A stretch of 64,000 bases of DNA. It comes from Bremerella sp. P1 (GTDB lineage: Bacteria; Planctomycetota; Planctomycetia; Pirellulales; Pirellulaceae). A model generated the notes under the pieces. It was not told the DNA's origin. It searched no databases and saw nothing but the letters and a program-made list of their open reading frames with translations. A program made the position numbers and the translations under genes. The stretch covers positions 4,985,814 to 5,049,813 of the forward strand of contig NZ_CP118164.1 of the NCBI RefSeq assembly GCF_028748185.1, written 5' to 3'. This document shows positions 1,764-64,000 of this stretch, in pieces (within the stretch, counting starts at the first letter, position 1; each line of letters starts with the position of its first letter).

Positions 1764-1949
1764 GTCGAGACTTTCCTGGTTCACATCAAACGAACCACCC
1801 TGATACGACAGGGCAGGGGGGAGTGGGAACGTGACTCAAGAACGGATATCGGCCAGAAAGTCGGCATAATCGAGAGAATTGCCGTAATCGGCAAAGTTTG
1901 CCACAAAAAGGCGCCGATGCCACCAATGAATGCATCTCTGTCAGCGCAT

Positions 1950-1989
1950 AAAAAAACCGTTGTGATCCGCCCCCAGATACACAACGGCT
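1950..1989 (-). terminator. Minus-strand terminator
   Basis: An 8-bp stem (CCGTTGTG at 1957-1964 with CACAACGG at 1980-1987) has a 15-nt loop. On the minus strand it is followed by a run of at least seven T. A second hairpin with a TAGT tetraloop lies just upstream in that direction (1996-2013). No annotated gene ends here, so it points to an unrecognised small transcript to its right. Confidence 0.65.
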
Positions 1990-2024
1990 TCCTGCCCACG
2001 ATTAGTATCGTGGCATTTCGGTAT

Positions 2025-2093
2025 TTAAGAGCATCGGTCGATCTGATAGCAGACGCGGAACAAGTTGCCGTAGAATTCGGGGAACCGCATCAT
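2025..2093 (-). CDS. Possible 22-residue peptide between two terminators
   Basis: On the minus strand ATGATG opens a 22-codon frame, MMRFPEFYGNLFRVCYQIDRCS, closed by TAA at 2027-2025. An in-frame TAA lies six codons before the first ATG, so the frame cannot be longer. It sits between a minus-strand terminator at 2135-2173 and hairpins plus a T-tract at 1950-2013, as expected for a short independent transcript of about 150-200 nt. Against it: no clear Shine-Dalgarno sequence, and a frame this short occurs often by chance. The aromatic and Cys-containing composition is peptide-like. I do not recognise the family; the transcript could instead be a non-coding RNA. Confidence 0.3.
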   Translation of the reverse strand: MMRFPEFYGNLFRVCYQIDRCS

Positions 2094-2134
2094 GCCAATG
2101 TGAGGGGTTTAACAATCCGATCGAACGCGCGCAG

Positions 2135-2173
2135 AAAAAAGGCCGTCAAGTGGGGCAGGTACTCGACGGCCTT
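2135..2173 (-). terminator. Minus-strand terminator downstream of the membrane-protein gene
   Basis: Stem AAGGCCGTC (2139-2147) pairs with GACGGCCTT (2165-2173) around a 17-nt loop. The minus-strand reading gives TTTTTT after the stem. It may end the transcript of the membrane-protein gene that stops at 2431, leaving about 260 nt of 3' UTR. A smaller hairpin (GCCATCGT 2241-2248 with 2259-2266) lies in that UTR. Confidence 0.65.
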
Positions 2174-2430
2174 GACCAGGCAACCGGAGTTGCCAGTCAT
2201 GATTAAGGTGAATGGACAGCGTCCATTTGAATGTTGATCGGCCATCGTCTCGAAAGAAACGATGGCAATTTAAAGCGGTGTCAAAGCTTAGCTTTTCTGA
2301 GGCAACGTGAAGCTATTTACTGGCTGATTTACTGCAGATTCTGAAAATCGGAAAAGCGTCAGAATTACGTTTTACTTATGTGCCGGCCAAGTTAATTGCG
2401 TGAGCAATCCGCGCGTTCGGAATGTACGGA

Positions 2431-49546: not shown

Positions 49547-52500
49547 TTAAGAATCTGGCCTTCCAAAGCCCCCGCCCCCGGGTGTCTTCACGATCAGAAT
49601 GTCTCCCGCGTCTACCGAAAAGCTGGCCGTATTAGGCAGGCGTGTTTCTGGGGCGTTAACGCGATGAAGCAGGTTTTCGCCACATTGCCCTGGCTGCCCA
49701 CCGTTGAGTCCGTAGGGAGCATAGGGGCCGCGACGCTGCGTGAGAAGCGAAACGTCGAGCGGTCGCAAGAACTCAATTTCACGAATGATTCCATCACCAC
49801 CTCGATGGTGTCCCGGTCCGCCTGATCCTTGCCGTATGGCAAAGCGTCGGATTCTCGCTGGAAAGCGAAGCTCGAAAACTTCGGCGTCTGTAAGCCGAGT
49901 GTTGGTCATATGCGTATGAACGGCAGAGGCACCAGGGGCGTTTCTCGTCGCTCCGGCTCCCCCGCAGATCGTCTCATAGTAACCGAACGTCGCGTCGCCG
50001 AAGGTCAAGTTGTTCATCGTTCCTTGGCTGGCCGCCGCCATGCCGAGGGCACCCAAAAGAACATCAACCACACGCTGCGATGTCTCGACGTTGCCGCCTG
50101 CTACTGCCGCACACTTCGCTGGACTTTCCTTCTTGGGCGGGTTGAGAAAACACTCAGGAAGGATGATGTCTACAGGCTCAAGTACGCCTTGGTTTAGGGG
50201 GATATCTTCGTTGAGTAAGCACCGCAAGCAGTACATTACCGCTGCCGTTACAATCGCTCGGTTCGCGTTCAGATTACCGGGCAGGACGGGACCGGTGCCC
50301 GTGAAGTCGATGGTCGCGGTTTCTCCCTGCAGGTCGATCGCCACGCACAAAGGAGAACCATCGTCCAAGTGGTCGGCAAACTCGTATCGCCCTGGTGGAA
50401 TTTTCGCGAGTGCGGCACGCGTCTTTCGTGATGCGGCTGCCTGAATATGTTTCGCGTAGGCTACCACTGTTTCCAAGGTGTACTGCTGTGTCATTCGCTT
50501 CAGGTCTTCGATGCCGTGATGATTTGCTGCGATTTGAGCGGCAATGTCAGCCAGGTTGTCGGAAACCTTGCGAGAGGGAAAAGGTGCCTCGGTGAGGATC
50601 CGTTCGAATTCTTCCCAGCGTGGAGTGCCCGCTTCGATCAGACGGAAGTTTTCGATCAAGACGCCTTCTTCTGCCAGGTTCTTTGATCCGGAGGGCATTG
50701 AACCAGCTGCTATGCCTCCGATCTCGGCATGGTGTGCCCGACTGGCGGCGAAGAAGGTTGGCTGGTTATCCGATTCATGCACGAACATCGGAGAAATCAC
50801 GGTCACATCCGGCAAATGGGAACCGCCATGGTACGGATCGTTAGTAACGAAAACGTCTCCGCTCTTCATGTTCGGGTGCTGTTCAATCGTCGCTTTGACG
50901 GTCTCAGCCATCGCACCTAAGTGAACTGGTATATGGGGAGCATTCGCAATCAAGTCGCCTGACGAAGTAAACAACGCACAGCTAAAGTCGAGACGTTCCT
51001 TGACATTCACGCTGACCGACGTGTTCTGTAGGGCAACACCCATTTGTTCGGCAATCGCCGCGAACTGTTTGTTAAGGATCTCCAGCAGAACGGGATCGGG
51101 ACTATCAAGAGAAGTCAACGAATCTTGAAGGTCGTGCGTGCTTTGATCCGCAGTCCGCCCTGCCAGTAATTCACCTCCACTCAAAATTTCTGCTTTCCAG
51201 CCTGGGTCGATGACTGTCGTGGCTAGCGACTCCGCGATGAGAGCAGGACCAACAATCCTTGCCCCCGGCTTTAGCTGGTCGCGGTCGTATACCTTGGTGT
51301 CGATCTGCTTGCCCTGAAAGACGAGAGGAACGGTTTGGACTACCGCAGGTTCGTAGGGGGGTTGAGATTCGCTGAGAACAGATTCGGTTGTGCCTTGGCT
51401 AATGGCCTCTACCCGAGTGGCGACAACTTCGATCGGATGTTCCTTGCGCTCGTAACCATAACGGCGACGATGCTCCTCGTGATAACGCTGTCCCAAAGAA
51501 GCAAGGGGCTCCGCTTCGATCGTTAGCGAGGCCTCGAGACCGCGATACCGGAGTTCGATCTGCTTTTGGTAGATAATCGAATTCTGCTCGACGTCTTCTT
51601 CATTCAACTCGGCAGTGGCAGTTTGTTTCAATGCTTCGAGCGACGACGGCAGTTCCGGTAAAGCTTCGTCCAAAGCCAGGTAAAAAGGCTGGGTGGCAAA
51701 CCGAGATGTGTCAGCCGCACCAATTCCAACTGCGCTGAGGATGCCTGCACTGGGATGAAACAGGAGTTGCCGTGCGCCGAGGATTTCTGCGACGGCACAT
51801 GCATGCTGGCCGGCGGCCCCGCCAAACGGAACGAGTAAATACGATCGCGGGTCGTAGCCTTTGGCGACCGAGATCGTACGGATCGCTTCGGCGATGTTGG
51901 CATTGGCAATCTGGAGGAAACCAGCGGCTAGCTCTAACGGTGTTCGCTTTTGCCCGGTTGCCACTTCGACTTGCTCGCAGACTTCGGATAATCGCCGATC
52001 GACCGCTTCAGCATCGAGCGGGAAGGGAAGCCGAGCCGCTTTCAATTTTCCGAGGGCAAAGTTGATATCGGTAACCGTTAGGGGACCACCTCTGCCATAG
52101 CAAGCGGGGCCGGGATCTGCCCCGGCACTCGCTGGGCCTACCACCAGTTTCACTCCATCGAACGCGCAGATCGAGCCACCACCCGCGGCAACGGTTTCAA
52201 TGGCCATCATCGGTGCCACGATCCGTACGCCTGCCTTTTCGGTTTCAAACTGGCGTTCGTAAATCCCATCGAATCGAGAGACGTCGGTGCTGGTGCCTCC
52301 CATGTCGAAGCCGATTGCTTTGTTGAATCCGGCCAACTTCGCGGCAGCGGCAAAGCCGACTACGCCACCGGCAGGCCCGGAAAGGATGCTGTCTTTGCCT
52401 GAGAACGACTCCGCGGCCACTAAGCTTCCAGCCGAAGTGAGCAGGCGAAGTTGGCTGCCGGTGCCGAGCTTCGACTGAATCTTGTGGACGTAGTCTCTTA

Positions 52501-53365
52501 GGATCGGATTGAGATAAGCGTCCACAACGGTGGTGTCACCACGGGAAACAATTTTGATCAGCGGAGCCACGGAGTGCGAAACACTGACATCGGTAAACCC
52601 GACTTCGCTGGCAATTGTTCGTGCGGCGATTTCGTGTTTCGGTTCACGGTAAGCATGCAGGAAGCAAATCGCTACGCTACGAACGCCGGATGCGTATAAG
52701 TTGCTCAATTTGTCTTTCAGATCGACTTCATCAAGCGGCGTGAGCGTGTTGCCGTGGGCATCGAGTCGTTCCCGAGTTTCGATAACCTGAGATACAAGCG
52801 AAGTTGGCTTCTTGATGTCCAAATTGAATAGTTGTGGACGGCTTTGCGAACCGATCTCCAGAATGTCAGCGAAGCCCTCGGTGATGATCAAGCCAACGTC
52901 TGCTCCGGTTCGCGTCAGCAAGGCATTCGTTCCGCGAGTTGTCCCTAGGCGTACGTTCACTGAGGGAATGGGATCGCTGAGCGAGAGTCCGAGTAAATAT
53001 CGGATCGATAGCAAAGGTGCTTCTTCGTGTCCCGTCAACTGATAGACGCTTCCCGATTGTGGCACCTTGTCGAGCTGGGCTGCGAGCGTCAGCTGACCAC
53101 TGGCATGGTCAAAGCCGGTGACCATCTGGGACTCGATTCGCTCGCCGTGGTGGTCGAACAACTCAAGTTGGTAGCCCTGCCAGACGTTGGGAGGGTCGTT
53201 GCATCGAATCGGGTCGATGATTACTTGTTGAGTGCTTCCCGGGCCTACGGTTCCTTGGGTCGTGCCAGAACTAAGAACCTTTTTTCGGCGGGTTGACTTA
53301 CCTGGCAGGTGAAGCAGGCAATCTGTGAATGTTCCCCCGACATCAATCCAGAACTCAGGTCGCAT
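49547..53365 (-). CDS. 5-oxoprolinase, single-chain HyuA-HyuB type
   Basis: The product has 1272 residues: HyuA-like ATPase half (1-700, FWIDVGGTFTDCLLHLPG, IGFDMGGTSTDVSRFDG) and HyuB-like half (about 755-1265, PHIPVHLGAMAETVKATI in part, VFVTNDPYHGGSHLPDVT, GGGGFGRPDS). It hydrolyses 5-oxoproline to glutamate with ATP, or a hydantoin in related enzymes. Two-subunit forms are split into two genes elsewhere; here one chain, as in eukaryotic OPLAH. It lies 71 bp after the acyltransferase gene on the same strand, so it might be transcribed with the lipid cluster, but the role is not obviously linked. Confidence 0.92.
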   Translation of the reverse strand: MRPEFWIDVGGTFTDCLLHLPGKSTRRKKVLSSGTTQGTVGPGSTQQVIIDPIRCNDPPNVWQGYQLELFDHHGERIESQMVTGFDHASGQLTLAAQLDKVPQSGSVYQLTGHEEAPLLSIRYLLGLSLSDPIPSVNVRLGTTRGTNALLTRTGADVGLIITEGFADILEIGSQSRPQLFNLDIKKPTSLVSQVIETRERLDAHGNTLTPLDEVDLKDKLSNLYASGVRSVAICFLHAYREPKHEIAARTIASEVGFTDVSVSHSVAPLIKIVSRGDTTVVDAYLNPILRDYVHKIQSKLGTGSQLRLLTSAGSLVAAESFSGKDSILSGPAGGVVGFAAAAKLAGFNKAIGFDMGGTSTDVSRFDGIYERQFETEKAGVRIVAPMMAIETVAAGGGSICAFDGVKLVVGPASAGADPGPACYGRGGPLTVTDINFALGKLKAARLPFPLDAEAVDRRLSEVCEQVEVATGQKRTPLELAAGFLQIANANIAEAIRTISVAKGYDPRSYLLVPFGGAAGQHACAVAEILGARQLLFHPSAGILSAVGIGAADTSRFATQPFYLALDEALPELPSSLEALKQTATAELNEEDVEQNSIIYQKQIELRYRGLEASLTIEAEPLASLGQRYHEEHRRRYGYERKEHPIEVVATRVEAISQGTTESVLSESQPPYEPAVVQTVPLVFQGKQIDTKVYDRDQLKPGARIVGPALIAESLATTVIDPGWKAEILSGGELLAGRTADQSTHDLQDSLTSLDSPDPVLLEILNKQFAAIAEQMGVALQNTSVSVNVKERLDFSCALFTSSGDLIANAPHIPVHLGAMAETVKATIEQHPNMKSGDVFVTNDPYHGGSHLPDVTVISPMFVHESDNQPTFFAASRAHHAEIGGIAAGSMPSGSKNLAEEGVLIENFRLIEAGTPRWEEFERILTEAPFPSRKVSDNLADIAAQIAANHHGIEDLKRMTQQYTLETVVAYAKHIQAAASRKTRAALAKIPPGRYEFADHLDDGSPLCVAIDLQGETATIDFTGTGPVLPGNLNANRAIVTAAVMYCLRCLLNEDIPLNQGVLEPVDIILPECFLNPPKKESPAKCAAVAGGNVETSQRVVDVLLGALGMAAASQGTMNNLTFGDATFGYYETICGGAGATRNAPGASAVHTHMTNTRLTDAEVFELRFPARIRRFAIRQGSGGPGHHRGGDGIIREIEFLRPLDVSLLTQRRGPYAPYGLNGGQPGQCGENLLHRVNAPETRLPNTASFSVDAGDILIVKTPGGGGFGRPDS

Positions 53366-53436: not shown

Positions 53437-54831
53437 CTAGGCGGAAGGACCGGCGGCACTATGGGTAATCTGGTCGATGTATCGCGAAAGAAGTTCGTGC
53501 GACTGATCCAGCGTGTAGTGAAAGGGATCATGCTTGAGGCTGACGAAGATCTGGTTAGCCGAAGTGCAGACGCAAAACGCGGCGGCAGTGTTGGGGCGGC
53601 AAGGTGGCGTGCCGGTGAGACCGTCATACACGAGATTTCCGGCGGTCAGCCCACCGTCGGCAGGGGGAAGCTTCGATTGAAATCGTCGCCAGGAATTACC
53701 GAAGTTGGTCAGGACGGCCGTTGAGAAACAGGAAGAACCATTAAGCATCCATGGGAGCAGTCCCAGTGATTGCACCGCGGCCAGTCCTCCAATGAAATGA
53801 CGAGAGAGATTGTCTTTGCGAATTGCCGCCGTTTCAGGAGCGAGCGAATCGAGTAGTTCATCTGGCTTTCGGATCAGATTGCCACGTCGTGCCATAAAGG
53901 CGAAGCCGATGTCGTTGGTGGTCGGCATCGCGGCATCGCCACGGCCTCTTAGACTTTGCGGCATGAGGATTCTCAAGTGACGCGAACCGACGTCAATACC
54001 TTGATCCCCCATCCAGTCGTGAAGCGTTACGAACAGATCACGTAGCAGCACGTCATTGACCGTAACCTTTTGGGCGGATGTCCATTTGCGCATTGCCAAC
54101 GTGGCGTCCACACTAACAGACTTGGTGATATGTCCGTTCTGTTGCCGGGTAGCGTCATCGTCTAAGCGAGGAAGCTTGGTGGTCATCGGCAGGGGACGCT
54201 GCATGAAAAAGTTACTTGCTCCGTAGATCCCACAGTAGACGTCATAAAGGCCACGCTTCCAGCCTGGGTTTTCCAGCGCAGAATTGCAGCGGTTGAGTAG
54301 ACGTTCAGGCTCCCACTTTCGCGGCTTAACGAATTTCGCGCCGGGCGTAGCGTTGTGGTAGGCCGTCAACAAATCTTCGACGAATGCGATCGAACCAACG
54401 CCATCCGATGTGGCGTGGTGAAAATGAAGCAGAAACGAGGATCGCTCGCTTCCGGGTCGCACAAAGATTTTGATGCCGAGGTCTTGGGAGAGGTCAACAA
54501 ATGCATCGTATCCAGTCGAATAAGGTACGCCATATTCATCCCATTCGACCTCTGGCATGCGATCCGTTAGCTGCCAGACTAGACCGAGCTTTTTGTCTTT
54601 CTGGACAATGCTTCGAAAGAAGGGAGCCCGCTGGATGGCGAACGCGAGAGCTTCCTCGAAAGGACCCCGTTCAATGGTGCCTTGGACGTGAACTTCGATG
54701 TCGCACATCATCGGGTACTGCGAACGTCCGTCGGCGAGCATAAATGCTTCGACCGGCGAAAGAGGCAGAGGAAACAGCTTGGCCAACTGAGACTTGACTT
54801 CGGAATTCGGCTGCATGGCAAGCTGTGGCAT
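53437..54831 (-). CDS. Condensation-domain/wax-synthase-like acyltransferase
   Basis: The product has 464 residues from ATG 54831, preceded by GCAGGAA at 6 nt; the frame to 54861 starts at TTG. HHATSDG (138-144, the HHxxxDG catalytic motif) and LPLSPVEAFMLADG at the N-terminus match the chloramphenicol-acetyltransferase-like fold shared by NRPS C domains, PapA proteins and wax-ester synthases. It joins an activated acyl group to an amine or alcohol. It is the most downstream gene of the lipid cluster; the AMP-ligase gene lies 26 bp upstream. Confidence 0.85.
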   Translation of the reverse strand: MPQLAMQPNSEVKSQLAKLFPLPLSPVEAFMLADGRSQYPMMCDIEVHVQGTIERGPFEEALAFAIQRAPFFRSIVQKDKKLGLVWQLTDRMPEVEWDEYGVPYSTGYDAFVDLSQDLGIKIFVRPGSERSSFLLHFHHATSDGVGSIAFVEDLLTAYHNATPGAKFVKPRKWEPERLLNRCNSALENPGWKRGLYDVYCGIYGASNFFMQRPLPMTTKLPRLDDDATRQQNGHITKSVSVDATLAMRKWTSAQKVTVNDVLLRDLFVTLHDWMGDQGIDVGSRHLRILMPQSLRGRGDAAMPTTNDIGFAFMARRGNLIRKPDELLDSLAPETAAIRKDNLSRHFIGGLAAVQSLGLLPWMLNGSSCFSTAVLTNFGNSWRRFQSKLPPADGGLTAGNLVYDGLTGTPPCRPNTAAAFCVCTSANQIFVSLKHDPFHYTLDQSHELLSRYIDQITHSAAGPSA

Positions 54832-54857
54832 GTTGATTTCCTGCGGTTGCGAAGTGA

Positions 54858-56339
54858 TCAAGGAAGCTCTTTCACTTGAATCTTGCCCGCCGGGTTCCGG
54901 GGGAGCTTTTCGACGATCGCGAAGTCGCGAGGGCGCTTGTAGTAAACAAGGTGTTCGTCGCAGTAAGCTTTCAGGGCGTCCTCATCGATTCCGTCATTGA
55001 CGGCAACGGCCGCTTTGACGATCTCTCCCTTAGACTTGAGTTGTCCGGCATAGACTTTCACTTCGCGAACGCCAGGCATCGCCGCGATGACTTCTTCAAC
55101 TTCACAAGGTACGACCTTCAGTCCCAGGACGTTAATCATCTCGCCCGTGCGACCGCGGAGATGGATGACGCCATCTTCGACAACCTTCGACAGATCGCCC
55201 GTCTCGAAGAAACCTTCGGAATCCCATGGTTTCAGGACTTCACCCGTATCGGATAGATAGCCGGTCATCATCGACGAACTCTTCACATGAAGCTTGCCGA
55301 CCCCGGGTGCCAGTCCTAGTTCATCGGCGTTGGCCGGCGGACGAACACGGACTTCGACGCCATCCATCGGTGGTCCAACACGACCGTCAACATCTTGACC
55401 ATCCGCGATTGTTGCTACTGAAATACCGCCGGTTTCTGTCGTTCCGTAGAGAGGGCAAACGGTAACACCAGTTTTTTTGCGGAACTGATCAGCCGACCGT
55501 TTGGGCATCATAGAGCCTGCAGTCAGCAGCCATCGCAATCGTCCGAAATCGATGCCACCGCCGAAGAGCAGTATGTCAATGTGGGCAGGGACCATCGGCA
55601 GAACGGTGACAGGGAAATCTCGCAAGACACGAGCTAGTTGCTTGATGCTAAACTTTGCGGTGGTGACGATACTTGCTCCGGTCAGAAGCGGAACCATCGT
55701 CGTAACGCCATAGCCGTAGGCATGGCTCATCGGTGGAATAGCCATCATGCAATCATCTTCGCAGATAGCCATTGTTGCCGTATAGTGCCGAGCTTCTTCC
55801 ATCGCTGGAAATCCAGGGCGCAGGGCAATTTTGGGCAGTCCCGTCGAACCGGAAGTTGGATGCAGGGGAACGCCGCGAAGCTCAGGGCCTGGGATATTGG
55901 TCGGTTCGGGAAAACGACCCAGCAACAGGCTCCAGTCGTCGCCAGCGAAAATCATCCCATGTTGTTCGAGGACCGACTCGGCCTGGTCGTCTCCGCCTGA
56001 GGAGATCAGCCACTTCACGCCGAATCGCTGCGCGTAACGAGCCAACTCGGCCGGTGGTGTCATCACGTGAACCAACAGCGGAGATGCTTCGCAGGCAAGA
56101 ATGGCTGTAAGTGCCACGGGGAACATCGGCCCGTTGGCGATCGTGACCAAAACACGATCGCCTGCAGCGATGCCCTTCTGTTTCAGGGTCTGCGCGAGCT
56201 GCTGTCGCAGACGTTGAAATTGATCGGAAGAGACACTGCGGCCAGAATCTAAGTCGAAAATCTGACCGCGATAGCTTTCCGCCGCCTCCAGTATGGGAGT
56301 AGGGCTCCATACGGATTTTGGCGTTAACGTACCAGGCAT
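54858..56339 (-). CDS. Acyl-adenylate-forming ligase
   Basis: The product has 493 residues from ATG 56339. The AMP-binding signatures are all present: TSGSTGLPKIALRP (A3), YGTTETGG (A5), ETGDL and LRGRTGEMINVLG (A7/A8), and PRNPAGKIQV at the C-terminus with the catalytic Lys. It activates a carboxylic acid as an acyl-adenylate and loads it to CoA or a carrier protein. The substrate (fatty, amino or aromatic acid) is not readable. Its start overlaps the stop of the aminotransferase by 16 bp; all genes from 53437 to 64000 read leftward. Confidence 0.93.
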   Translation of the reverse strand: MPGTLTPKSVWSPTPILEAAESYRGQIFDLDSGRSVSSDQFQRLRQQLAQTLKQKGIAAGDRVLVTIANGPMFPVALTAILACEASPLLVHVMTPPAELARYAQRFGVKWLISSGGDDQAESVLEQHGMIFAGDDWSLLLGRFPEPTNIPGPELRGVPLHPTSGSTGLPKIALRPGFPAMEEARHYTATMAICEDDCMMAIPPMSHAYGYGVTTMVPLLTGASIVTTAKFSIKQLARVLRDFPVTVLPMVPAHIDILLFGGGIDFGRLRWLLTAGSMMPKRSADQFRKKTGVTVCPLYGTTETGGISVATIADGQDVDGRVGPPMDGVEVRVRPPANADELGLAPGVGKLHVKSSSMMTGYLSDTGEVLKPWDSEGFFETGDLSKVVEDGVIHLRGRTGEMINVLGLKVVPCEVEEVIAAMPGVREVKVYAGQLKSKGEIVKAAVAVNDGIDEDALKAYCDEHLVYYKRPRDFAIVEKLPRNPAGKIQVKELP

Positions 56340-57676
56340 TGTCGAGCACCTTCTTCCCAACGCTCCAAGACTTCGTCGATGTCACTCGACGAATGAGCGA
56401 TGGATAGGAACATCGGTTCAAATTCATTGGGGTGGAAATAGACACCACGCTGTTGCATCCAGTGTTGGAACTGAATGTAGCGTTCAAAGTCGGCATGTCG
56501 TCGGACGTCTCGATAGTTATACAGTCCGTCGGTTTCTTCCTTTGTGATCATGGCTGCCATCAGCGGACCCAAGTGATTCACTTGAGCCGGAATGTTCAGG
56601 CGCGAATAGATGTCCTTCACGCCGTTGGCAAGTTGATCGGAAACGGCGTGCAAATGTCCGTAAATACCTTCCTTGTCTGCGAGCACGGTATCGAGGACAG
56701 CTTCTGCAGCGGACATCACAATCGCATTTCCGGAGAACACGCCACCATGGAACAATGGGCCTTTCACGATACACTGCATCATTTCAGCCGAGGCGCCAAA
56801 TGCGCTGACCGGATAGCCGCCGCCCATTGCCTTGGACATCACGGTGATGTCTGGGGTAACCAGGTAATGCTCTTGAGCACCACCCGGCGAAACTCGCATG
56901 CCGGTGATCACTTCGTCAAAGATCAAGAGGGCACCACAGTCGTGTGCCATTTCTCGGACCGTTGCCAGGTAGCCATCCTTCGGCATCAGCAAACCAGCGT
57001 TGCCTGAAATGGGTTCCATTATGACGGCACAGACTTCGTGGCCATGTTCGGCAAGAGCTCGTTCCAGAGCATCGAGGTCATTCCACTGGACCGTGATGAC
57101 GTCCTTGATGCTGTCGCCCATGCCCGAGGTACCGGGGATCGCCGGGCCATAGCCTTTTTCAGGTAGTTCTTCCAACGGAGCATGGTACTTGGTAAACACC
57201 GCTTCGCTCCAGCCGTGGTAATGGCCTTCAAACATGATTAGCTTGTTGCGGCCGGTGTAAGTCCGTGCAAGACGGACGGCGGAAGCACATGCTTCGGTTC
57301 CCGAGTTAGCGAATCGAAGAAGCTCGATGCTTGGGAAAAGCTTCTTGATCTTTTCAGCCACACGCATGGTGACTTCGGTTGGGAAGCCAAGCTGGCTGCC
57401 TTGCTCAGAGATTTGACGATAGACGGCCTCGATTACGGCCTTGGGACGATGCCCCAGCAGCAGTGGACCGTACGACATGTTGAGGTCGATGTATTCGTTG
57501 CCGTCAACATCCCATAGGCGGCAGCCTTCGGCTCGATCGGCAACCAGTGGGATATGGTAAGGCAGAACCCGCATGGTGCTGCTATCGCCACCAGCCAGGC
57601 TGTTCTTTGCACGTTCGAGAACTTCCGAGCTTACCGAGCAGTTAGCGGCTTCAAATTTGGAAACAGTACCGGACAT
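56324..57676 (-). CDS. Class III aminotransferase (glutamate-1-semialdehyde aminomutase-like)
   Basis: The product is a 450-residue PLP enzyme. PLP lysine is K282 (VMSKAMGGGYPV), the cofactor-pairing Asp is D254 (LIFDEVITGMR), and ANSGTEACASAVRLAR is typical of GSA aminomutase. Location in a lipid cluster argues against tetrapyrrole synthesis; GSA-type domains also aminate acyl chains in iturin/mycosubtilin synthases. It probably transfers an amino group to a keto or aldehyde intermediate here, but that is inference. It lies 52 bp from the thioester-reductase gene. Confidence 0.88.
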   Translation of the reverse strand: MSGTVSKFEAANCSVSSEVLERAKNSLAGGDSSTMRVLPYHIPLVADRAEGCRLWDVDGNEYIDLNMSYGPLLLGHRPKAVIEAVYRQISEQGSQLGFPTEVTMRVAEKIKKLFPSIELLRFANSGTEACASAVRLARTYTGRNKLIMFEGHYHGWSEAVFTKYHAPLEELPEKGYGPAIPGTSGMGDSIKDVITVQWNDLDALERALAEHGHEVCAVIMEPISGNAGLLMPKDGYLATVREMAHDCGALLIFDEVITGMRVSPGGAQEHYLVTPDITVMSKAMGGGYPVSAFGASAEMMQCIVKGPLFHGGVFSGNAIVMSAAEAVLDTVLADKEGIYGHLHAVSDQLANGVKDIYSRLNIPAQVNHLGPLMAAMITKEETDGLYNYRDVRRHADFERYIQFQHWMQQRGVYFHPNEFEPMFLSIAHSSSDIDEVLERWEEGARQCLVR

Positions 57677-57728
57677 AATTAATCCCCTGTGAGATTCGCT
57701 GACGATGTTGTCGATCGTGTCTTGCTAC

Positions 57729-59219
57729 TTATTGGATGAAACTGGACTGACTCTCGGCCTTGGTGGCGGTCGAGAACTCTTGAAAACACCGGGCGATTTC
57801 TTCGGAACTGGTAGCATTCCCAGCTGTGAACAATCGTCCTGATTGCAGTGCGGCTTCCCAACTGAGTTGGCCGCGAGTGATGCGATGGAATGTATCGGAG
57901 TTGAGATAGCAGGTTGAGCTGTCTCCGTTCTTGAGTCCGGATCCAATGCCCACCAGGCGACCGTGATCCAGAATCATGTGCCATTGACCACCGCCATTTC
58001 CGCTGATGCGGAGGCTGACGTAACGTCGGTCATCGGAGTCGTCCGATGATCGAGTGGGATTCATCCAGGGCGCGAGTTCTTCGGCTATCGGGAACTTGCG
58101 ACTGACGGGTGTTTCTCTCGGCCAACCGAAGTTCTTGTCGATGGCATACTTCACCAGCAGATCCATCAGGGACTGATCGACCTGAGGGCAGGGCAGGTGA
58201 GGTAGGCACGTTTCGGTGCGAGTACTATCGAAGGTCGGATCGTCGCTCCAATACGACTGATAAACCTTCATCTGATCGCGGAATGAGTCCATCATCTTTT
58301 CCGCGTCTTCCGAAAGCTTCGACTGGTCGGCTTCTTCGTGCTTGGCCAAATCGAGAACAGCTTCCCCAATGGAGGCCAACATGTCGGCAACGGTTGCCGC
58401 TTTGGGGTTGGTGAAGTGATAGGTCTCGCCATGAAGGTCTTGGCGAGCGATAACTTCGGTCATAGCAGCCGAAACCCAGTCGACTGGCACAAGGTTTTTG
58501 CGCTCGTCACCCGAGAGCGCCAACGTGCCGAGCCAGTCTCCTTGGGCAATCACATCCCAGGGTAGGGTTGTAACCAGCGTATGAACGAGTCGGAGCGGCG
58601 TGTAAAAGCCGTGATACGACGTGGTGAAACCAGTTTGAGAGTCTCCCACGATGATCGACGGACGATGAACCGTTAGCGTATCGAATCCTGCAGCACGGAC
58701 TTCCTTTTCGGCCGTGATCTTGCTGGATTCGTAGTCGTTGCTGGGAAGTTGGCCGACATCCAATTCGTCCTCACGAATGACTTCGCGACGCTGCCCGCAT
58801 ACGTAAGCGGTCGAGACGTGGTGGAACTTTCGGATGCCCGCCTCGCGGCAGAGATCGAGCATGTTGCGCGTGCCATGGATATTGCTACGCCATGGTTCGC
58901 CGCCTTCTTCCTCCGCATAGAAGGTCAACGAAGCAGCCGAATGAACAGCTGTGTCGCAGTACTCTCGGACCCACTGCTGATCTTCGTCGGACAGTCCACA
59001 CATTGGCTGTGTGATATCGCCTTCGAGAACGATAGGACGCACCAGTGCGTGCCCCAGTTCCTTCTCCCAGTAGGTCATGGCCGTTTCGATACGACCCACC
59101 GCCGATTCGATTCGCGATGGGCGCACGATGACCGCTAGCGGAATGTCCGCCAATGTCAGATCGCGAAGTAGGTAGCGGCCAAGTAAGCCTGTGCCGCCAG
59201 TTAACAGGTGATACTTCAT
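57729..59219 (-). CDS. Thioester reductase-like SDR protein with SCP2-like tail
   Basis: The product has 496 residues. Residues 1-350 are an extended SDR/Lys2-type thioester reductase: TGGTGLLG at 7-14, HVSTAYVCG, and Y163-x3-K167 (YESSK). Such domains reduce acyl-ACP or acyl-CoA to aldehyde or alcohol with NADPH. Residues about 400-480 (GNGGGQWHMILDHG, CYLNSDTFHRITRGQLS, FTAGNATSSEEI) look like a SCP2 sterol/lipid-binding domain, which could present a lipid substrate. The tail assignment is tentative. It lies 21 bp from the FabL-like gene. Confidence 0.85.
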   Translation of the reverse strand: MKYHLLTGGTGLLGRYLLRDLTLADIPLAVIVRPSRIESAVGRIETAMTYWEKELGHALVRPIVLEGDITQPMCGLSDEDQQWVREYCDTAVHSAASLTFYAEEEGGEPWRSNIHGTRNMLDLCREAGIRKFHHVSTAYVCGQRREVIREDELDVGQLPSNDYESSKITAEKEVRAAGFDTLTVHRPSIIVGDSQTGFTTSYHGFYTPLRLVHTLVTTLPWDVIAQGDWLGTLALSGDERKNLVPVDWVSAAMTEVIARQDLHGETYHFTNPKAATVADMLASIGEAVLDLAKHEEADQSKLSEDAEKMMDSFRDQMKVYQSYWSDDPTFDSTRTETCLPHLPCPQVDQSLMDLLVKYAIDKNFGWPRETPVSRKFPIAEELAPWMNPTRSSDDSDDRRYVSLRISGNGGGQWHMILDHGRLVGIGSGLKNGDSSTCYLNSDTFHRITRGQLSWEAALQSGRLFTAGNATSSEEIARCFQEFSTATKAESQSSFIQ

Positions 59220-59240
59220 AGTTTCCTATACTTTGCCTGC

Positions 59241-60005
59241 TTAAACGTGAACCGCCGCGCCACCATCGACGACCAGCGTTTCTCCTTGGACCAAATCGGA
59301 CAGAGGGGATGCGAGGAAGATCACCGCGTTGGCGATATCTTCGATGGAAAGCATACGATCCCCCATCATTGTTTTGTCTTTACGGTGAGCGAACATCTGG
59401 TCTGCACCGGGCAGACGCTTGGTTGAATCCGTTTCGACAAGGCCAGACTTGATGATGTTAACGTTGACTCCTTTGTCGCCGACTTCGAGGGTCAGGTGAC
59501 GTGCGAGGCTTTCCAGAGCGGCCTTCGAGCTTCCGATCAAGCCGTACCACGGCAACGCCGTATCACTACCATGGCTGCTGATGCCAATGACCTTGGCTCG
59601 ACCCTGGCTCTTTTCCAGCAGCGGCATGCCGGCTTGTACCAGGTACAGCATGGCCAGAACGTTGGTGTGATAAGTGTTCTCGAAATGCTTTTCGTTTGCG
59701 GCGAGCAGCGGGCGGAAGCCGCCGGTGGCTGCGTTGCTGACAATGATGTCAAGCTGCTGGATGTGCTCACCGATGTACTCCATCATCGATTCGACATCAT
59801 CCTTCTGGCTGACATCCGCCTTGACGACGAAAGAACGGCGACCCATTGCGCGGATCTCTTTGGCCGTCTCCATGGCAGCGGATCGGGAGGTCACATAGTT
59901 CACGATGACGTCCGCACCAGCTTCCGCCAGACGAAGCGCACAGGCACGGCCCATGCCTCGCGAGCTACCGGTGACGAGAGCCATTTTTCCGGTCAAATCA
60001 ATCAT
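59241..60005 (-). CDS. FabL-like enoyl-ACP reductase/SDR
   Basis: The product has 254 residues. The SDR Rossmann motif is TGSSRGMGR, and the active site is Y154-x6-K161 (YGLIGSSK), the Y-x6-K spacing of FabI/FabL enoyl reductases, not the Y-x3-K of ketoreductases. NAATGGFRPLL and the C-terminal VDGGAAVHV resemble FabL. It probably reduces the enoyl intermediate left by the KR-DH of the adjacent megasynthase. The stop overlaps the Rieske gene start by 4 bp. Confidence 0.88.
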   Translation of the reverse strand: MIDLTGKMALVTGSSRGMGRACALRLAEAGADVIVNYVTSRSAAMETAKEIRAMGRRSFVVKADVSQKDDVESMMEYIGEHIQQLDIIVSNAATGGFRPLLAANEKHFENTYHTNVLAMLYLVQAGMPLLEKSQGRAKVIGISSHGSDTALPWYGLIGSSKAALESLARHLTLEVGDKGVNVNIIKSGLVETDSTKRLPGADQMFAHRKDKTMMGDRMLSIEDIANAVIFLASPLSDLVQGETLVVDGGAAVHV

Positions 60006-61165
60006 GAAGTCTTACCTTTATAGCTAATTGGAATAGTGTCTCGTTGAGTGTGACCACTGCCATCGTTCACGGCACGGTCAATATAATTTTGAAAGTGATA
60101 AACGCGTTCTTCTCGCGTCGAAATCAAACCACCCAAGGGCTGGTCGACCGAACTCAGACCGTGTTGAACCTGTGTCATGACCTGGGCATCTTCATCGCCA
60201 ACTTGGCATAAGAAGTCATTGGCCCAACGGCTAATCAAGTAACGATTCCAGAGTCTTCGCAGTTTGCCCTTCTGGCCGACGTGGCACATCAGCCGAATGA
60301 TCGATATCGAACTATTGGGTGATACAGGGACTACGCATTCCACCCAGCGATAAAGCGATAGATGGGCGATCATGACATTTGGGTAGTGAGCGACGTGTTG
60401 ATACTCAGGGGTTCGGTCGCGACCAACGAGCCAATGCCCAAATTTGTCGAGGGATGCTCGAAAGGACTGCTCCTGGCTGAAGTCAACGCGAAGGGAACTT
60501 CCCCAGTCGTCTAGTTTGTGTTCGCAGTCTTCTTCCGAAGGTGACTCGCCGAATGTCTTGGGATGGACCTCGGTCGTGTGATAGCTTTCCAGAGCATTCT
60601 CGATGAGGCATTTCCAGTTTGCTTGAATTGGTCGATTGAGAACAATCGCCGTATGCATGTCAGGCGAAAACCACTCCTGGTAGGTCGTATACATCTCGCC
60701 CAGGAATTCGCGAAGCGAAGGGCCTTCATCAGTCAGGTTAATGAAGAGCAGCTCGCCACAGGTTTCCAGGCGATACTTTTTTAGCCCTAACATGCCCTGC
60801 TTCAGAGGACGAAACGACTTAGCGTCGGGGATCTTGCGTACGTTACCGGTCTCGTCGAACTGCCAGCCGTGATACTGACAACGAAGGCGTTCACACGTAC
60901 CGCAGGAATCACTACGCAGTTTTGAGTAACGGTGCGAACAAACGTTCAAGAAGCAGTGGAACTGGTCATCGCATCGCCAAATAATGAGCGGACGACCGTA
61001 CATCTCAAGTGTTACGTAGCTTCCGTTTTGGGGGAGCTCACTCTTCAGGGCAACCGCATGCCAAGTAGGAATCAGAAGTGAGTCGACCTCTTTCTGAAGA
61101 ACTTCTTTACTCGTGTAGCAGTCGCGTGAAAGGATTTGTGGATGGTGCTGGGTACTTAAGAACAC
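60002..61165 (-). CDS. Rieske non-heme iron oxygenase alpha-subunit-like protein
   Basis: The product has 387 residues. The Rieske [2Fe-2S] ligands are C76, H78, C96 and H99 (CSHRYS, CQYHGW), and the catalytic iron site is N190, H196 and H201 (ENALESYHTTEVH). It is a ring-hydroxylating-oxygenase/choline-monooxygenase-type enzyme and may hydroxylate or desaturate the acyl product. Ferredoxin and reductase partners are not adjacent. The gene overlaps the phosphopantetheinyl-transferase gene by 10 bp. Confidence 0.92.
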   Translation of the reverse strand: MFLSTQHHPQILSRDCYTSKEVLQKEVDSLLIPTWHAVALKSELPQNGSYVTLEMYGRPLIIWRCDDQFHCFLNVCSHRYSKLRSDSCGTCERLRCQYHGWQFDETGNVRKIPDAKSFRPLKQGMLGLKKYRLETCGELLFINLTDEGPSLREFLGEMYTTYQEWFSPDMHTAIVLNRPIQANWKCLIENALESYHTTEVHPKTFGESPSEEDCEHKLDDWGSSLRVDFSQEQSFRASLDKFGHWLVGRDRTPEYQHVAHYPNVMIAHLSLYRWVECVVPVSPNSSISIIRLMCHVGQKGKLRRLWNRYLISRWANDFLCQVGDEDAQVMTQVQHGLSSVDQPLGGLISTREERVYHFQNYIDRAVNDGSGHTQRDTIPISYKGKTS

Positions 61166-61839
61166 AATGACACCTCCTGTCCTGACGTGTTACTCCATAC
61201 CGCCGTCGCGGCACCTTGGTTTGTGGCACGAACCCAAGTCGTCAACGGATCAACATCGAGCCCGTGAATGCGGCTACGGACTTGATTCTTGTCGATCGAA
61301 ACAAGCTCGACGGAGCGAGGATCCCACTTGCTACCATCGCCGCAGGCCTTGAAGATCGATTCCTTCAGCGCCCAAGCAACCGGCAAGCGGTTGGAAACAT
61401 CATTTTCAATCCACTTCACTTCCTGATCGCTAAACCAGTGCGATCGAAAACTTCTCGTCTCGGGAACGCAGGATGCTACGTCGACGCCGATTCGAGCATG
61501 ACTGCTGGCAATTCCAACCAGAATCGCCTGATTGCTATGCGAAATCGAAAGACGACAAGCACTGGCCATTCCACCGACTGAGACGGCGGGAGACTTTCCG
61601 AGGCCATCTGCACCTCGGGATAGGATTTCCACCTCACGCAATATGTCCACTTGCGACGAACGAGCAACGAGACGCTTAGCGATCCAACGTCCGGCCAACC
61701 ACTGGCTACGTCGTGAAGAGTCTTTCCAGAAGGAAAGCTCCGACAACTCCAGTTCGGTCAACCAAGTTGACGCCTGGGGGATACCCAGCTTCTCGAAGTT
61801 CGCGACGTAGCGAACTGTACGTGGGTAGGAAGAAATCAT
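61156..61839 (-). CDS. Sfp-type 4'-phosphopantetheinyl transferase
   Basis: The product has 227 residues. The three PPTase motifs are visible: SISHS (98-102), GVDVA (118-122) and WALKES (156-161), giving the Sfp/Gsp family with magnesium-binding Asp/Glu. It activates carrier-protein domains, most likely the ACPs of the megasynthase next door, as in polyunsaturated-fatty-acid operons that carry a dedicated PPTase. Start and stop overlap both neighbours. Confidence 0.95.
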   Translation of the reverse strand: MISSYPRTVRYVANFEKLGIPQASTWLTELELSELSFWKDSSRRSQWLAGRWIAKRLVARSSQVDILREVEILSRGADGLGKSPAVSVGGMASACRLSISHSNQAILVGIASSHARIGVDVASCVPETRSFRSHWFSDQEVKWIENDVSNRLPVAWALKESIFKACGDGSKWDPRSVELVSIDKNQVRSRIHGLDVDPLTTWVRATNQGAATAVWSNTSGQEVSLCS

Positions 61840-64000
61840 TTCACCTCCCCTCGCATAAGAATGACTTTCTCGTAACCGGTCGCCTTGAGAATGACGGTGC
61901 CGTCCTGTCCGACAACAACCATGTCGTACAACGCGGACTTCTCTGCGATGTTGCGACAGGTGAAGTGGACGTAGCAGTTCTCGCCATCTTGCGGAACGCG
62001 TCCTAGTTCAAGTAACTCGATCTTGCGTGGCAGCGATACAGCGCCTTCGCCATGCAAATACAAGTGGCAACCGCATGCGTAAAGAGCCGAATCGAGAACG
62101 CACGAGGGGACAATCCATCCGTCGCGTTTTGACTCGCCGGTCAAATCTACCAGGGGTTGCGCCACGATATGGCCCCAACCATTGGATGCTTCGCAGCTAA
62201 TGGCTTTCAAACAGCGGAAGGGTTGGCCGTGATAAATGGCGCTGTCTTCCGGGTACTCAACGGCGTGCCATTCACTCGGGAAGGTTGGCAGGGTCGTCGT
62301 TGGTGCGGCAGGCGAATCGGCAACAACCGCTTTCGCTTCCAGGTACAGCCGATCCTTCTGGATCAAGCCACCGGTTCGGTTGCGGAAGTCGCAAGTCCAG
62401 CGGCATTGAACAAGCTGATCGTCAATTAATTCGCTGCGAGCCTGTGCCGTTTGCGGGTTGTCGGTGTGGAAGACGAGTCCATCCACCATGTCGACATCAC
62501 GGAAAGCAACTACCGTTTTACCGCTTGCGATCGCTGCTGCCTCACGCAAGGCTTCCAAGGTAGCCACAACCGGCATGATTGGTTTGCCACGCAGGCGATG
62601 CTGGATCAGGAACGGATCCGCGGTTGGATCAAGCGGAACGTCTCCGATCAACTCATCCCCTTCGCGGCGGGTCGTTTGGATGAGTGGGACATCGCTGGCC
62701 TCTTCACCCGAACGCGGTTGGAACTCGCCCAATGGGTACTGCTCTTCCGGGTAAAACATGGGATAGAAGTCACCGAACGTATAAAGCGTTTCGGCCTTCT
62801 TTCCGCCACCGGCCATTTCTTCTTCCAGTCGGCGGACGCCTTCCTCTGGCAGCATGTATTTCATCTTCATCACGCTGCGCGGTCCCCAGGCAAAACGGGA
62901 CAGGGTAGCGATGCCAGCCCCTTCCCAGGATTCCCAGTGAATGCAAAGGGTCGTGCAGTCGGGACTAGCCTTGCGGTGCCAGTCGAGGGCCTTCGACATC
63001 GAGTCGTTTCCGGCGGCGTAGTCGCTGAGCCCGTTGCCCCCGAAACGACCGCTAATCGAACCGAAGCCGATGCAGTGCGTCAAAGGGTCATTCTTGGTGA
63101 GGGCAAGCAAGTGCATGAGTCCATCGAACTTCGTGCGTACTAGCTTCTCGACGAATCCACGTCGCTTGTGCTCGAAGCGACCTGGCTCGATCAGCCCGGC
63201 ACCATGCATGAGGCCAGTCACGGGGCCATCGGTTGCTCGGACCTTGTCCAACGCTGCGGAAAGTTCGTCCCGGCTGGTAACATCGCATTGATGGTACGTT
63301 GCCTGAATGCCTGCTTCGGCAAACTTCTGTAGGTTGTTGAAGATCTCGCAATCCTTCAAGACTCGATCCCAAGCAGCGCCGGGTGATTGCCCATCGGCGA
63401 CAGCCTGACGGGTGATCTGGGTCTTGTAGGTCTTGAGTTGCTCTTCGTCGAAGTTGCGCCACGGAGCGTTTACGATCGGCGGTGGGCTCTTGCCGAAGAG
63501 ATGAAGTTTCCAGCCATAACGTCGAGCAAGTTCTCGGGCCGCGATAGCGGTGATCCCGCGTGCGCCGCCGGTTACTACCCAGACACCGCCTTGCGGAATA
63601 TTGGCGAGCGGTCCAAGAGGAAGGTCGACCGGAATGGGGCGTACGACGCATCGCTTGCCAGCGTTCCAGCTCACTTCGACTTCAGGCCGATACGATGCCG
63701 CTTCACGCAGCAATGCATCAACGACCACTTGCGACGATTCGCCAGCGGGGGAGTCGATCACTTTGCATCGAGCTGCTCGCTCATCACGACGTGAATCTTC
63801 GATATGCAGTGACTTAACGAAGCCAGCCATGCCACCGCCATCGGGCAGTGATACAGTTGACTCGAAGCCGAAGTCACCACCAAGGCTCGTTGCGGCGACA
63901 AGTGTGCCTGGGCCATGTTCGGTCAATTTGATAAGGCGCTTGTACCAACTCTGGGCGATGAAGAACGGCGCGATGATACCATCGTGTCGTCGCTTCTCGA
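61836..64000 (-). CDS. PUFA/polyketide-type megasynthase, C-terminal KR-DH part (5' end outside window)
   Basis: The frame stays open to the right window edge without a start, so only the C-terminal part (at least 720 residues) is seen; the leftmost TTG (63926) is not a real start. The ketoreductase has TGGARGI (about 63555-63572) and a catalytic Ser/Tyr/Asn set (FGSISGRFGGNGLSDYAAGN). A double-hotdog dehydratase follows, with H-x3-G-x4-P (QHRLRGKPIMP) and the second half with D-x-A (VLDSALYACG). Order KR-DH at the C-terminus matches PfaA-like or similar synthases; KS, AT and ACPs would be upstream. It overlaps the PPTase gene by 4 bp. Confidence 0.88.
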   Translation of the reverse strand, partial: EKRRHDGIIAPFFIAQSWYKRLIKLTEHGPGTLVAATSLGGDFGFESTVSLPDGGGMAGFVKSLHIEDSRRDERAARCKVIDSPAGESSQVVVDALLREAASYRPEVEVSWNAGKRCVVRPIPVDLPLGPLANIPQGGVWVVTGGARGITAIAARELARRYGWKLHLFGKSPPPIVNAPWRNFDEEQLKTYKTQITRQAVADGQSPGAAWDRVLKDCEIFNNLQKFAEAGIQATYHQCDVTSRDELSAALDKVRATDGPVTGLMHGAGLIEPGRFEHKRRGFVEKLVRTKFDGLMHLLALTKNDPLTHCIGFGSISGRFGGNGLSDYAAGNDSMSKALDWHRKASPDCTTLCIHWESWEGAGIATLSRFAWGPRSVMKMKYMLPEEGVRRLEEEMAGGGKKAETLYTFGDFYPMFYPEEQYPLGEFQPRSGEEASDVPLIQTTRREGDELIGDVPLDPTADPFLIQHRLRGKPIMPVVATLEALREAAAIASGKTVVAFRDVDMVDGLVFHTDNPQTAQARSELIDDQLVQCRWTCDFRNRTGGLIQKDRLYLEAKAVVADSPAAPTTTLPTFPSEWHAVEYPEDSAIYHGQPFRCLKAISCEASNGWGHIVAQPLVDLTGESKRDGWIVPSCVLDSALYACGCHLYLHGEGAVSLPRKIELLELGRVPQDGENCYVHFTCRNIAEKSALYDMVVVGQDGTVILKATGYEKVILMRGEVK

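Follow-up and report, generated by a model that had tools for sequence, protein, structure and literature searches.

The 64,000-nt stretch of Bremerella sp. P1 DNA analyzed here, the window (positions 4985814-5049813 of G000:C1, a 6.96-Mb single-contig genome), carries part of a ten-gene unit whose gene content is, as a solid call, that of a secondary-lipid synthase core with likely export. The unit consists, in order, of an MMPL transporter, a metallo-β-lactamase (MBL)-fold hydrolase, a megasynthase, a phosphopantetheinyl transferase (PPT), a Rieske oxygenase, a short-chain dehydrogenase/reductase (SDR), a thioester reductase (TR), an aminotransferase (AmT), an acyl-adenylate ligase (AL) and a condensation-fold acyltransferase (C). 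The AmT and AL genes form a portable two-gene cassette, and the megasynthase harbors a domain that is predicted to adopt the fold of isopenicillin N acyltransferase (IAT). Planctomycetes have few characterised natural products; the natural empty sites that set the borders of the unit and the reassignment of its amine-forming enzyme turn a vague prediction into an assayable one.

The original prediction for this DNA described an operon of eight leftward genes. All eight are found on the minus strand at 53437-64000, where it placed them, tightly packed and mostly overlapping, and Pfam and NCBIfam profiles agree with the family names it gave; the unit itself is larger, however, comprising ten genes with the MBL-fold hydrolase and the MMPL transporter. 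From left to right, the C gene (condensation-type acyltransferase) and the AL gene (acyl-adenylating enzyme) overlap by 4 bp, and AL and AmT by 37 bp. Gaps of 52 bp and 21 bp separate AmT from TR and TR from SDR, and overlaps of 4, 10 and 4 bp follow at the SDR/Rieske, Rieske/PPT and PPT/megasynthase junctions. The same order was found in eight of the nine relatives from genera g1 and g2 with TR loci read (G101, G032, G063, G071, G078, G088, G015 and G093, of which G088 is Blastopirellula marina DSM 3645), so the order is not a matter of chance. At its TR locus the ninth, G152, carries another system that is more distant.

The borders of the unit are set by genomes that lack it. Among eight sampled genomes of the genus, five carry the unit (G000, G032, G063, G071 and G101). 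In the other three, G097, G188 and G152, a hydantoinase gene and a gene for a 364-aa protein lie only 264, 201 and 247 bp apart, respectively, while in the window genome the distance between them is 22,997 bp and is filled by the genes from MMPL to C. Because these flanks adjoin in all three non-carriers, the ten genes behave at this site as a single block, either complete or missing altogether. No TR match was found in G097 and G188 at 1e-30, and G152 has a distant TR (45%) elsewhere in its genome. The hydantoinase gene (49547-53365), adjacent and co-directional, was considered as a member of the unit and rejected, as it stays where the unit is absent; the same flank comparison places the 364-aa gene and the kinase/FHA genes outside. 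At the right border (L003:2299-5336), genes for an FHA-domain protein and an FHA-protein kinase lie beside the 364-aa gene, an order kept in all four genus relatives checked. Carriers and non-carriers within one genus thus offer a natural lipid comparison. G152, a same-genus genome with an empty site here, has at C1 ~1208248 (L053, L054, L085) a more elaborate form of the system that is split over several proteins: a TR, a 1,367-aa protein with a ketosynthase (KS), a chain-length-factor-like KS (CLF) and an acyl carrier protein domain (ACP), a PPT, an SDR and a synthase of 3,558 aa that carries additional KS domains.

Only the C-terminal end of the megasynthase lies in the window. Beyond the window edge, where a stop or an unrelated protein would have refuted the original prediction, the frame continues to 3,599 aa with KS, acyltransferase (AT) and ACP domains, and the full domain read-out bears out a megasynthase of the polyunsaturated fatty acid (PUFA)/secondary-lipid type with an adjacent PPT gene. 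The order is KS, CLF-like KS, AT, three ACPs, a segment without a Pfam name, two ketoreductases (KR1 and KR2) and a dehydratase (DH). The KS Cys-His-His residues are present in all 17 synthases compared, and the aligned site of the partner KS lacks Cys in all 17, with a Cys one residue further in G046. The first KR motif is found in 17/17 synthases longer than 3,000 aa and the second in 16, G152 being without it. In KR1 (synthase residues 2639-2660), Ser stands at the position of the YxxxN Asn that KR2 has, in 16 of the 17 synthases, and the function of KR1 may be altered. Against the PfaA profile TIGR02813 the megasynthase scores 924.7 bits, with a cut-off of 1010.1; it is related but falls under the subfamily line. 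No separate pfaB or pfaC genes and no PfaD-type enoyl reductase were found among the proteins of the unit (Pfam at 0.001). The broad features of iterative secondary-lipid synthases are nevertheless all there: KS, CLF-like KS, AT, tandem ACPs, KR, DH and an adjacent PPT gene.

The segment between the ACPs and KR1 is, as predicted from its structural model, a domain with the N-terminal nucleophile (Ntn) fold of IAT. Near the start of the corresponding segments from ten genomes, a G, YE, G and HG are invariant. Of seven segments scanned, two (33.3 and 24.4) reach the gathering score of the Pfam family AAT (23.2), a third (22.7) falls just below it, and the segment of the window genome itself gave no AAT match. 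The predicted model of this latter segment (mean pLDDT 75.9) matches isopenicillin N acyltransferase (2x1c) with a Foldseek E value of 1.4e-12 and a Z score of 24.1 over 270 residues at a root mean square deviation of 3.4 Å; the next structural matches are acid ceramidase and NAAA. The site corresponding to the first residue of the mature Ntn enzymes, near model residue 113 (placed from alignment ranges, hence possibly off by 1-2 residues), is Ser in six of the ten homologues and Val, Met, Ala or Gly in four, and none of the ten has a Cys in the ~22 columns around it. Because the fold is kept and the nucleophile is not, the domain is probably a non-catalytic structural or docking module. Synthase residues ~1910-2214 would share a fold with isopenicillin N acyltransferase and the C45 Ntn enzymes, from which they differ in being located inside a synthase and in lacking the catalytic Cys. 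A narrow query found no publication joining the AAT Pfam accession with a polyketide synthase (PKS). If the assignment is true, a nucleophile-less acyltransferase fold in a polyketide/fatty-acid megasynthase would be an added domain type for these machines.

The enzymes encoded beside the synthase are consistent with arming, reduction, release, tailoring and export. TR contains GxxGxxG and Y163-x3-K167, and YxxxK is located at aa 148-163 in 24/24 loci. Its predicted model (pLDDT 67.9) supports a reductase (R) domain, with Foldseek matches to the R domains of a Streptomyces PKS (8v1x, 1.8e-15) and of myxalamid (9.8e-15). The NCBIfam model TIGR01746 gives 126.6 bits, below its cut-off of 213; by motifs and fold TR is an R domain. 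The myxalamid R domain produces alcohols via four-electron reduction. The SCP2-like tail that the original prediction gave to this reductase fared less well: the C-terminal ~120 aa match Alkyl_sulf_C, a family related to SCP2, at 2.2e-4 in the window protein, and two relatives match SCP2 itself at 0.05 and 0.08. None of these matches reaches its curated cut-off, and the Foldseek list of the model is uninformative on the tail, which by sequence may be SCP2-like.

The SDR was described as a FabL-like reductase, and FabL is its best NCBIfam model (265.6 bits, cut-off 328). The expected Y-x6-K is present, with the same spacing in all 21 loci with a match, and its best relative in the PDB is the enoyl-ACP reductase 3oic; given this spacing and this nearest solved relative, the SDR may act as an enoyl reductase in place of PfaD. 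The Rieske protein, a putative tailoring enzyme, has CxH...CxxH and YHTTEVH motifs and is lineage-restricted, no locus that was read outside g1, g2, G059 and G091 having it; for it and for the MBL-fold hydrolase, PDB searches returned the family name only. In the P2 motif of PPT, GVDVAS, the Glu expected in the GxDxE motif of these enzymes is absent from its position in 15/15 loci with a match, and three have a Glu one residue later. C has HHxxxD[GA] in 18/18 loci with a match, a weak, below-cut-off match to a wax-ester synthase/DGAT model (1.8e-8) and no PDB sequence relative at E≤1. Of 196 genomes sampled from the order, 101 have a homologue of C (1e-15), which belongs to a family wider than this system. 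An MMPL orthologue is found at the locus in all eight g1/g2 carrier relatives and lies directly beside TR in G038, G046, G121, G127 and G166.

The core synthase system is order-wide. TR homologues were detected in 88 of the 196 genomes (1e-30), usually beside a like synthase, and in 40 of 392 genomes across the phylum (profile, 1e-60), namely 8 in family f1, 1 in f13, 24 in f21 and 7 in f63; many f21 matches span only approximately residues 1-372, without the tail. Among 15 further TR loci (outside g1/g2, plus G152), several on stretches that stop at contig ends, 12 have synthase domains, 11 of these 12 an SDR and six a PPT match, and five additional loci (G012, G045, G091, G149 and G185) all have synthase domains. 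TR-like matches at G180:C181:54534-55661 and G192:C1:4625649-4626767, both counted among the 88 genomes, lie within open frames of 2,939 and 3,031 aa and are probably domains of larger assembly-line proteins. In G052:C223 (L051, L052), two TR and two C genes surround one five-ACP synthase, and a third TR is on a different contig.

By sequence comparison AmT is nearer to PctV than to HemL. Its best PDB matches are 4zm3/4zm4 (343 bits; database title 'Aminotransferase'), which we take to be PctV, the pactamycin 3-aminobenzoate synthase, followed by HemL at 308 and the aminotransferase domain of MycA from mycosubtilin synthesis at 174. PctV, the best solved relative, shares the motifs IDLNMxYGP, SKxxGGG, HxGV and FHPN with AmT and differs in the substrate-loop residues. 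The 16 AmT orthologues have 20 invariant columns in which PctV agrees with them and all three HemL-type sequences differ, against five columns with the reverse pattern. In a 33-row tree the long-branched PctV joins the AmT clade at 92/92, under the tree's own mark of 95. The enzyme that the original prediction called GSA-type is a class III aminotransferase, by these comparisons with PctV and not HemL as the nearer relative. For AL, the best PDB relatives are 4-coumarate-CoA ligases, nearly equalled by malonyl-CoA synthetase; all 17 cassette ligases aligned carry HAY[GA][YF]G, the Tyr of which presumably lines the acyl pocket.

AL directly adjoins AmT in 21/21 distinct loci read (a count that excludes an AmT fragment in G047 and takes the repeats L090=G088, L094=G149, L096=G062 and L097=G013 once; AmT in L089 and L091 was read by tblastn). 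Six of these loci have no TR match in the sequence available: L082 (=G090), L091, L092, L093, L095 and L098. In L091 and L093 the AmT-AL pair lies near an LpxL-type acyltransferase, in L093 also near a thioesterase; its neighbours are a KS-KS protein in L092, C genes and MMPL in L095 and a GNAT-like protein in L082. In L098, from an acidobacterial metagenome-assembled genome (MAG), only the pair was recognised; AmT there is matched as two pieces that overlap, so this copy may carry a frameshift, and it was omitted from the signature-column comparison. AmT orthologues (1e-120) occur in 16 of the 196 genomes, 14 with TR and two (G047 and G090) without. Conversely, 74 of the 88 TR-positive genomes have no AmT orthologue, and no AmT match above 50 bits was found in 40-kb stretches around the TR of G127, G166, G067, G052 and G152. 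Where both occur they may be apart, AmT-AL lying ~32 kb from TR in G046 and on another contig in G149. As the AmT-AL pair is constant, also without TR, it is simplest to suppose that AL activates the product of AmT.

We consider the chances even that the product of the unit is a specialised, exported lipid, made in the following way. PPT would arm the three tandem ACPs, and KS with its inactive CLF-like partner, AT, KR, DH and the trans-acting FabL-like SDR would assemble malonyl units into a long chain, reduced for the most part, which TR would release reductively as an aldehyde or alcohol. AmT and AL would make and activate an amino acid, most likely of the aminobenzoate type (PctV chemistry on a shikimate-pathway ketone), and C would couple it, through an ester or amide bond, to the chain set free by TR. 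In this lineage the Rieske oxygenase would hydroxylate or desaturate the product; the MBL-fold hydrolase may edit thioesters or lactones, and MMPL would move the lipid outwards. For an amino(aryl) head group supplied by AmT-AL and coupled by C, we judge the chances slightly short of even. The original prediction had the long chain itself aminated. Because AmT is PctV-like, pairs with a ligase and is missing from most genomes with TR, the activated acid is a more likely site for the amine than the lipid chain, and that claim is corrected here to a less probable one. That the unit represents both a widespread planctomycete megasynthase class with a nucleophile-less IAT fold and an exported lipid capped by an aminobenzoate-type acid from AmT-AL, an undescribed lipid class, is a tentative and rather doubtful proposition.

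Several points weigh against the pathway proposed. The PctV grouping is moderate, with a single long-branched PctV row in a tree without zeamine, GntE or MycA rows, and AmT passes the NCBIfam aminomutase subfamily model (401.9 bits, cut-off 398). As evidence on substrate, the AL pocket residues are only suggestive. Nine of the 16 genomes with AmT belong to g1 or g2, where TR and AmT are neighbours, and this adjacency makes terminal amination possible. The stretches of G052, G013, G062, G173, G059, G130, G108 and G083 gave no MMPL match at 1e-10, and no synthase was found in the TR stretches of G083, G108 (at a contig end) and G121; because many genomes are drafts, absences may be gaps. Beyond gene content, order, motifs, borders and predicted fold, we infer the pathway.

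An unlikely alternative is a zeamine- or tambjamine-like route, in which TR would reduce the chain on the ACP to an aldehyde, AmT would convert it to a primary fatty amine and C would couple this amine to an AL-activated acyl group. The authors of the zeamine study propose the same logic for a PUFA-type synthase, a GSA-related aminotransferase, an SDR, a thioester reductase and a free-standing C domain, as far as the consulted text of PMC3547906 sets it out; TamH, in the part of PMC9594044 used here, is a transaminase fused with a thioester reductase, and the 52-bp TR-AmT junction fits such a coupling. The distribution points the other way, with TR mostly lacking AmT, six AmT-AL loci lacking a TR match and the two pieces lying apart in G046 and G149, and AmT is far from the MycA aminotransferase, a comparison made without the zeamine domain itself. 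On these TR, AmT and AL co-occurrence counts, terminal amination was demoted from the default reading.

We find it improbable that an aminoaryl thioester from AmT-AL primes the synthase KS to give an aryl-ended chain. In L092:659-5915, from a Fuerstiella MAG, AmT-AL adjoin a stand-alone 822-aa two-KS protein with 48% to the KS of this synthase, a hint at direct supply of a KS pair by the cassette, and LpxL-type acyltransferases are found beside AmT-AL in L091 and L093. Related synthases, however, are located in clusters without AmT-AL nearby, so the KS need not take an aryl starter, and AL here overlaps C, not the synthase. Finally, that AmT is an extra HemL for tetrapyrroles merely located in the operon is very improbable and was rejected: despite its narrow pass of the aminomutase subfamily model, AmT is below the hemL equivalog cut-off (376.7 vs 527.3 bits), the tree and signature columns favor PctV, and the genome has another gene, HemL-like and located at C1:5574880, which the tree places with Yersinia and Arenibacter sequences (100/99). 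The genes of the unit and the domains of its synthase are listed below.

Table 1 Genes of the unit and domains of its megasynthase (window positions, G000:C1 positions or megasynthase residues)
Feature	Position	Strand	Support or remark
C, condensation-fold acyltransferase	53437-54861	-	Pfam Condensation 4.2e-10; HHATSDG at aa 148
AL, acyl/aryl-adenylate ligase without carrier domain	54858-56360	-	AMP-binding 5.9e-44
AmT, class III aminotransferase	56324-57676	-	Aminotran_3 1.2e-64
TR, stand-alone thioester reductase (R domain)	57729-59219	-	NAD_binding_4 8.7e-42; thioester-reductase domain 1.4e-36
SDR, FabL-like, probable trans enoyl reductase	59241-60005	-	FabL best NCBIfam model; YGLIGSSK at aa 154
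Rieske non-haem iron oxygenase, alpha-subunit type	60002-61165	-	Rieske 1.5e-20; Ring_hydroxyl_A 6.5e-18
PPT, Sfp-type phosphopantetheinyl transferase	61156-61839	-	ACPS 2.5e-10; motifs GVDVAS, KESIFK
Megasynthase, C-terminal 720 aa in window (region before KR2, KR2, DH)	61836-64000, open	-	KR 3e-25; PKS_DH_N 1.3e-8
Full megasynthase gene	G000:C1:5047649-5058448, to window-equivalent 72635	-	3,599 aa
MBL-fold hydrolase, outside window	5058917-5059750	-	HLHWDH motif; same direction as synthase
MMPL transporter, outside window	5059892-5062165	+	Divergent from MBL and synthase
KS	aa 11-475		Cys217, His349, His389
CLF-like KS	aa 492-888		Without KS catalytic residues in window's own copy
AT	aa 1048-1329		GHSYG
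ACP x3	aa 1522-1852		
IAT-like domain (predicted)	aa ~1910-2214		
KR1	aa 2466-2687		
KR2	aa 3017-3238		
DH	aa 3326-3589		

The original prediction knew of no characterised pathway with exactly this combination. In our literature search, with subscription journals mostly outside its coverage, the exact ten-gene combination was not found described, although the zeamine polyamine half should have been weighed (PMC3547906). The following comparisons refer to the portions of the cited papers that were consulted. The nearest listed synthase architecture is the Type R secondary lipid synthase of Shulse and Allen, KS-MAT-CLF-ACP3-6-KR followed by a PPTase gene (PMC3098273), which shares with the unit the fused KS/CLF/AT/ACP/KR protein and the downstream PPTase gene. 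The order here differs, being KS-CLF-AT-ACP3 followed by an acyltransferase-fold domain, two KRs and a DH, and the name Blastopirellula does not occur in the main text of that paper. The heterocyst glycolipid hgl island likewise combines a PUFA-related synthase, a thioester reductase and a PPTase (PMC11804610), and antiSMASH hglE-KS clusters have been counted, without products, in a Pirellulaceae genome (PMC13190842). The unit differs from the hgl island in its single synthase, its amino-acid cassette and MMPL instead of ABC export; no Pfam match to an hglT-type glycosyltransferase or to hgdABC export was found within the 22,997 bp. The PUFA-type hybrid clusters surveyed in a 2026 paper include nonribosomal peptide synthetase (NRPS) and PKS genes as well (PMC13291983), unlike the unit, between whose flanking genes we found no NRPS or modular PKS partner gene.

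By analogy, the closest characterised logic is that of the zeamine/fabclavine polyamine half (zmn10-14, zmn5 and zmn19), which adds a PPTase to the enzymes named above (PMC3547906). A stand-alone thioester reductase, a free-standing condensation domain and a PPTase are located in one cluster in both systems. The planctomycete unit differs in having a single fused synthase rather than PfaA/C/D homologues, with no PfaD-type reductase found, a PctV-like, ligase-paired AmT, and the additional Rieske, MBL-fold and MMPL proteins.

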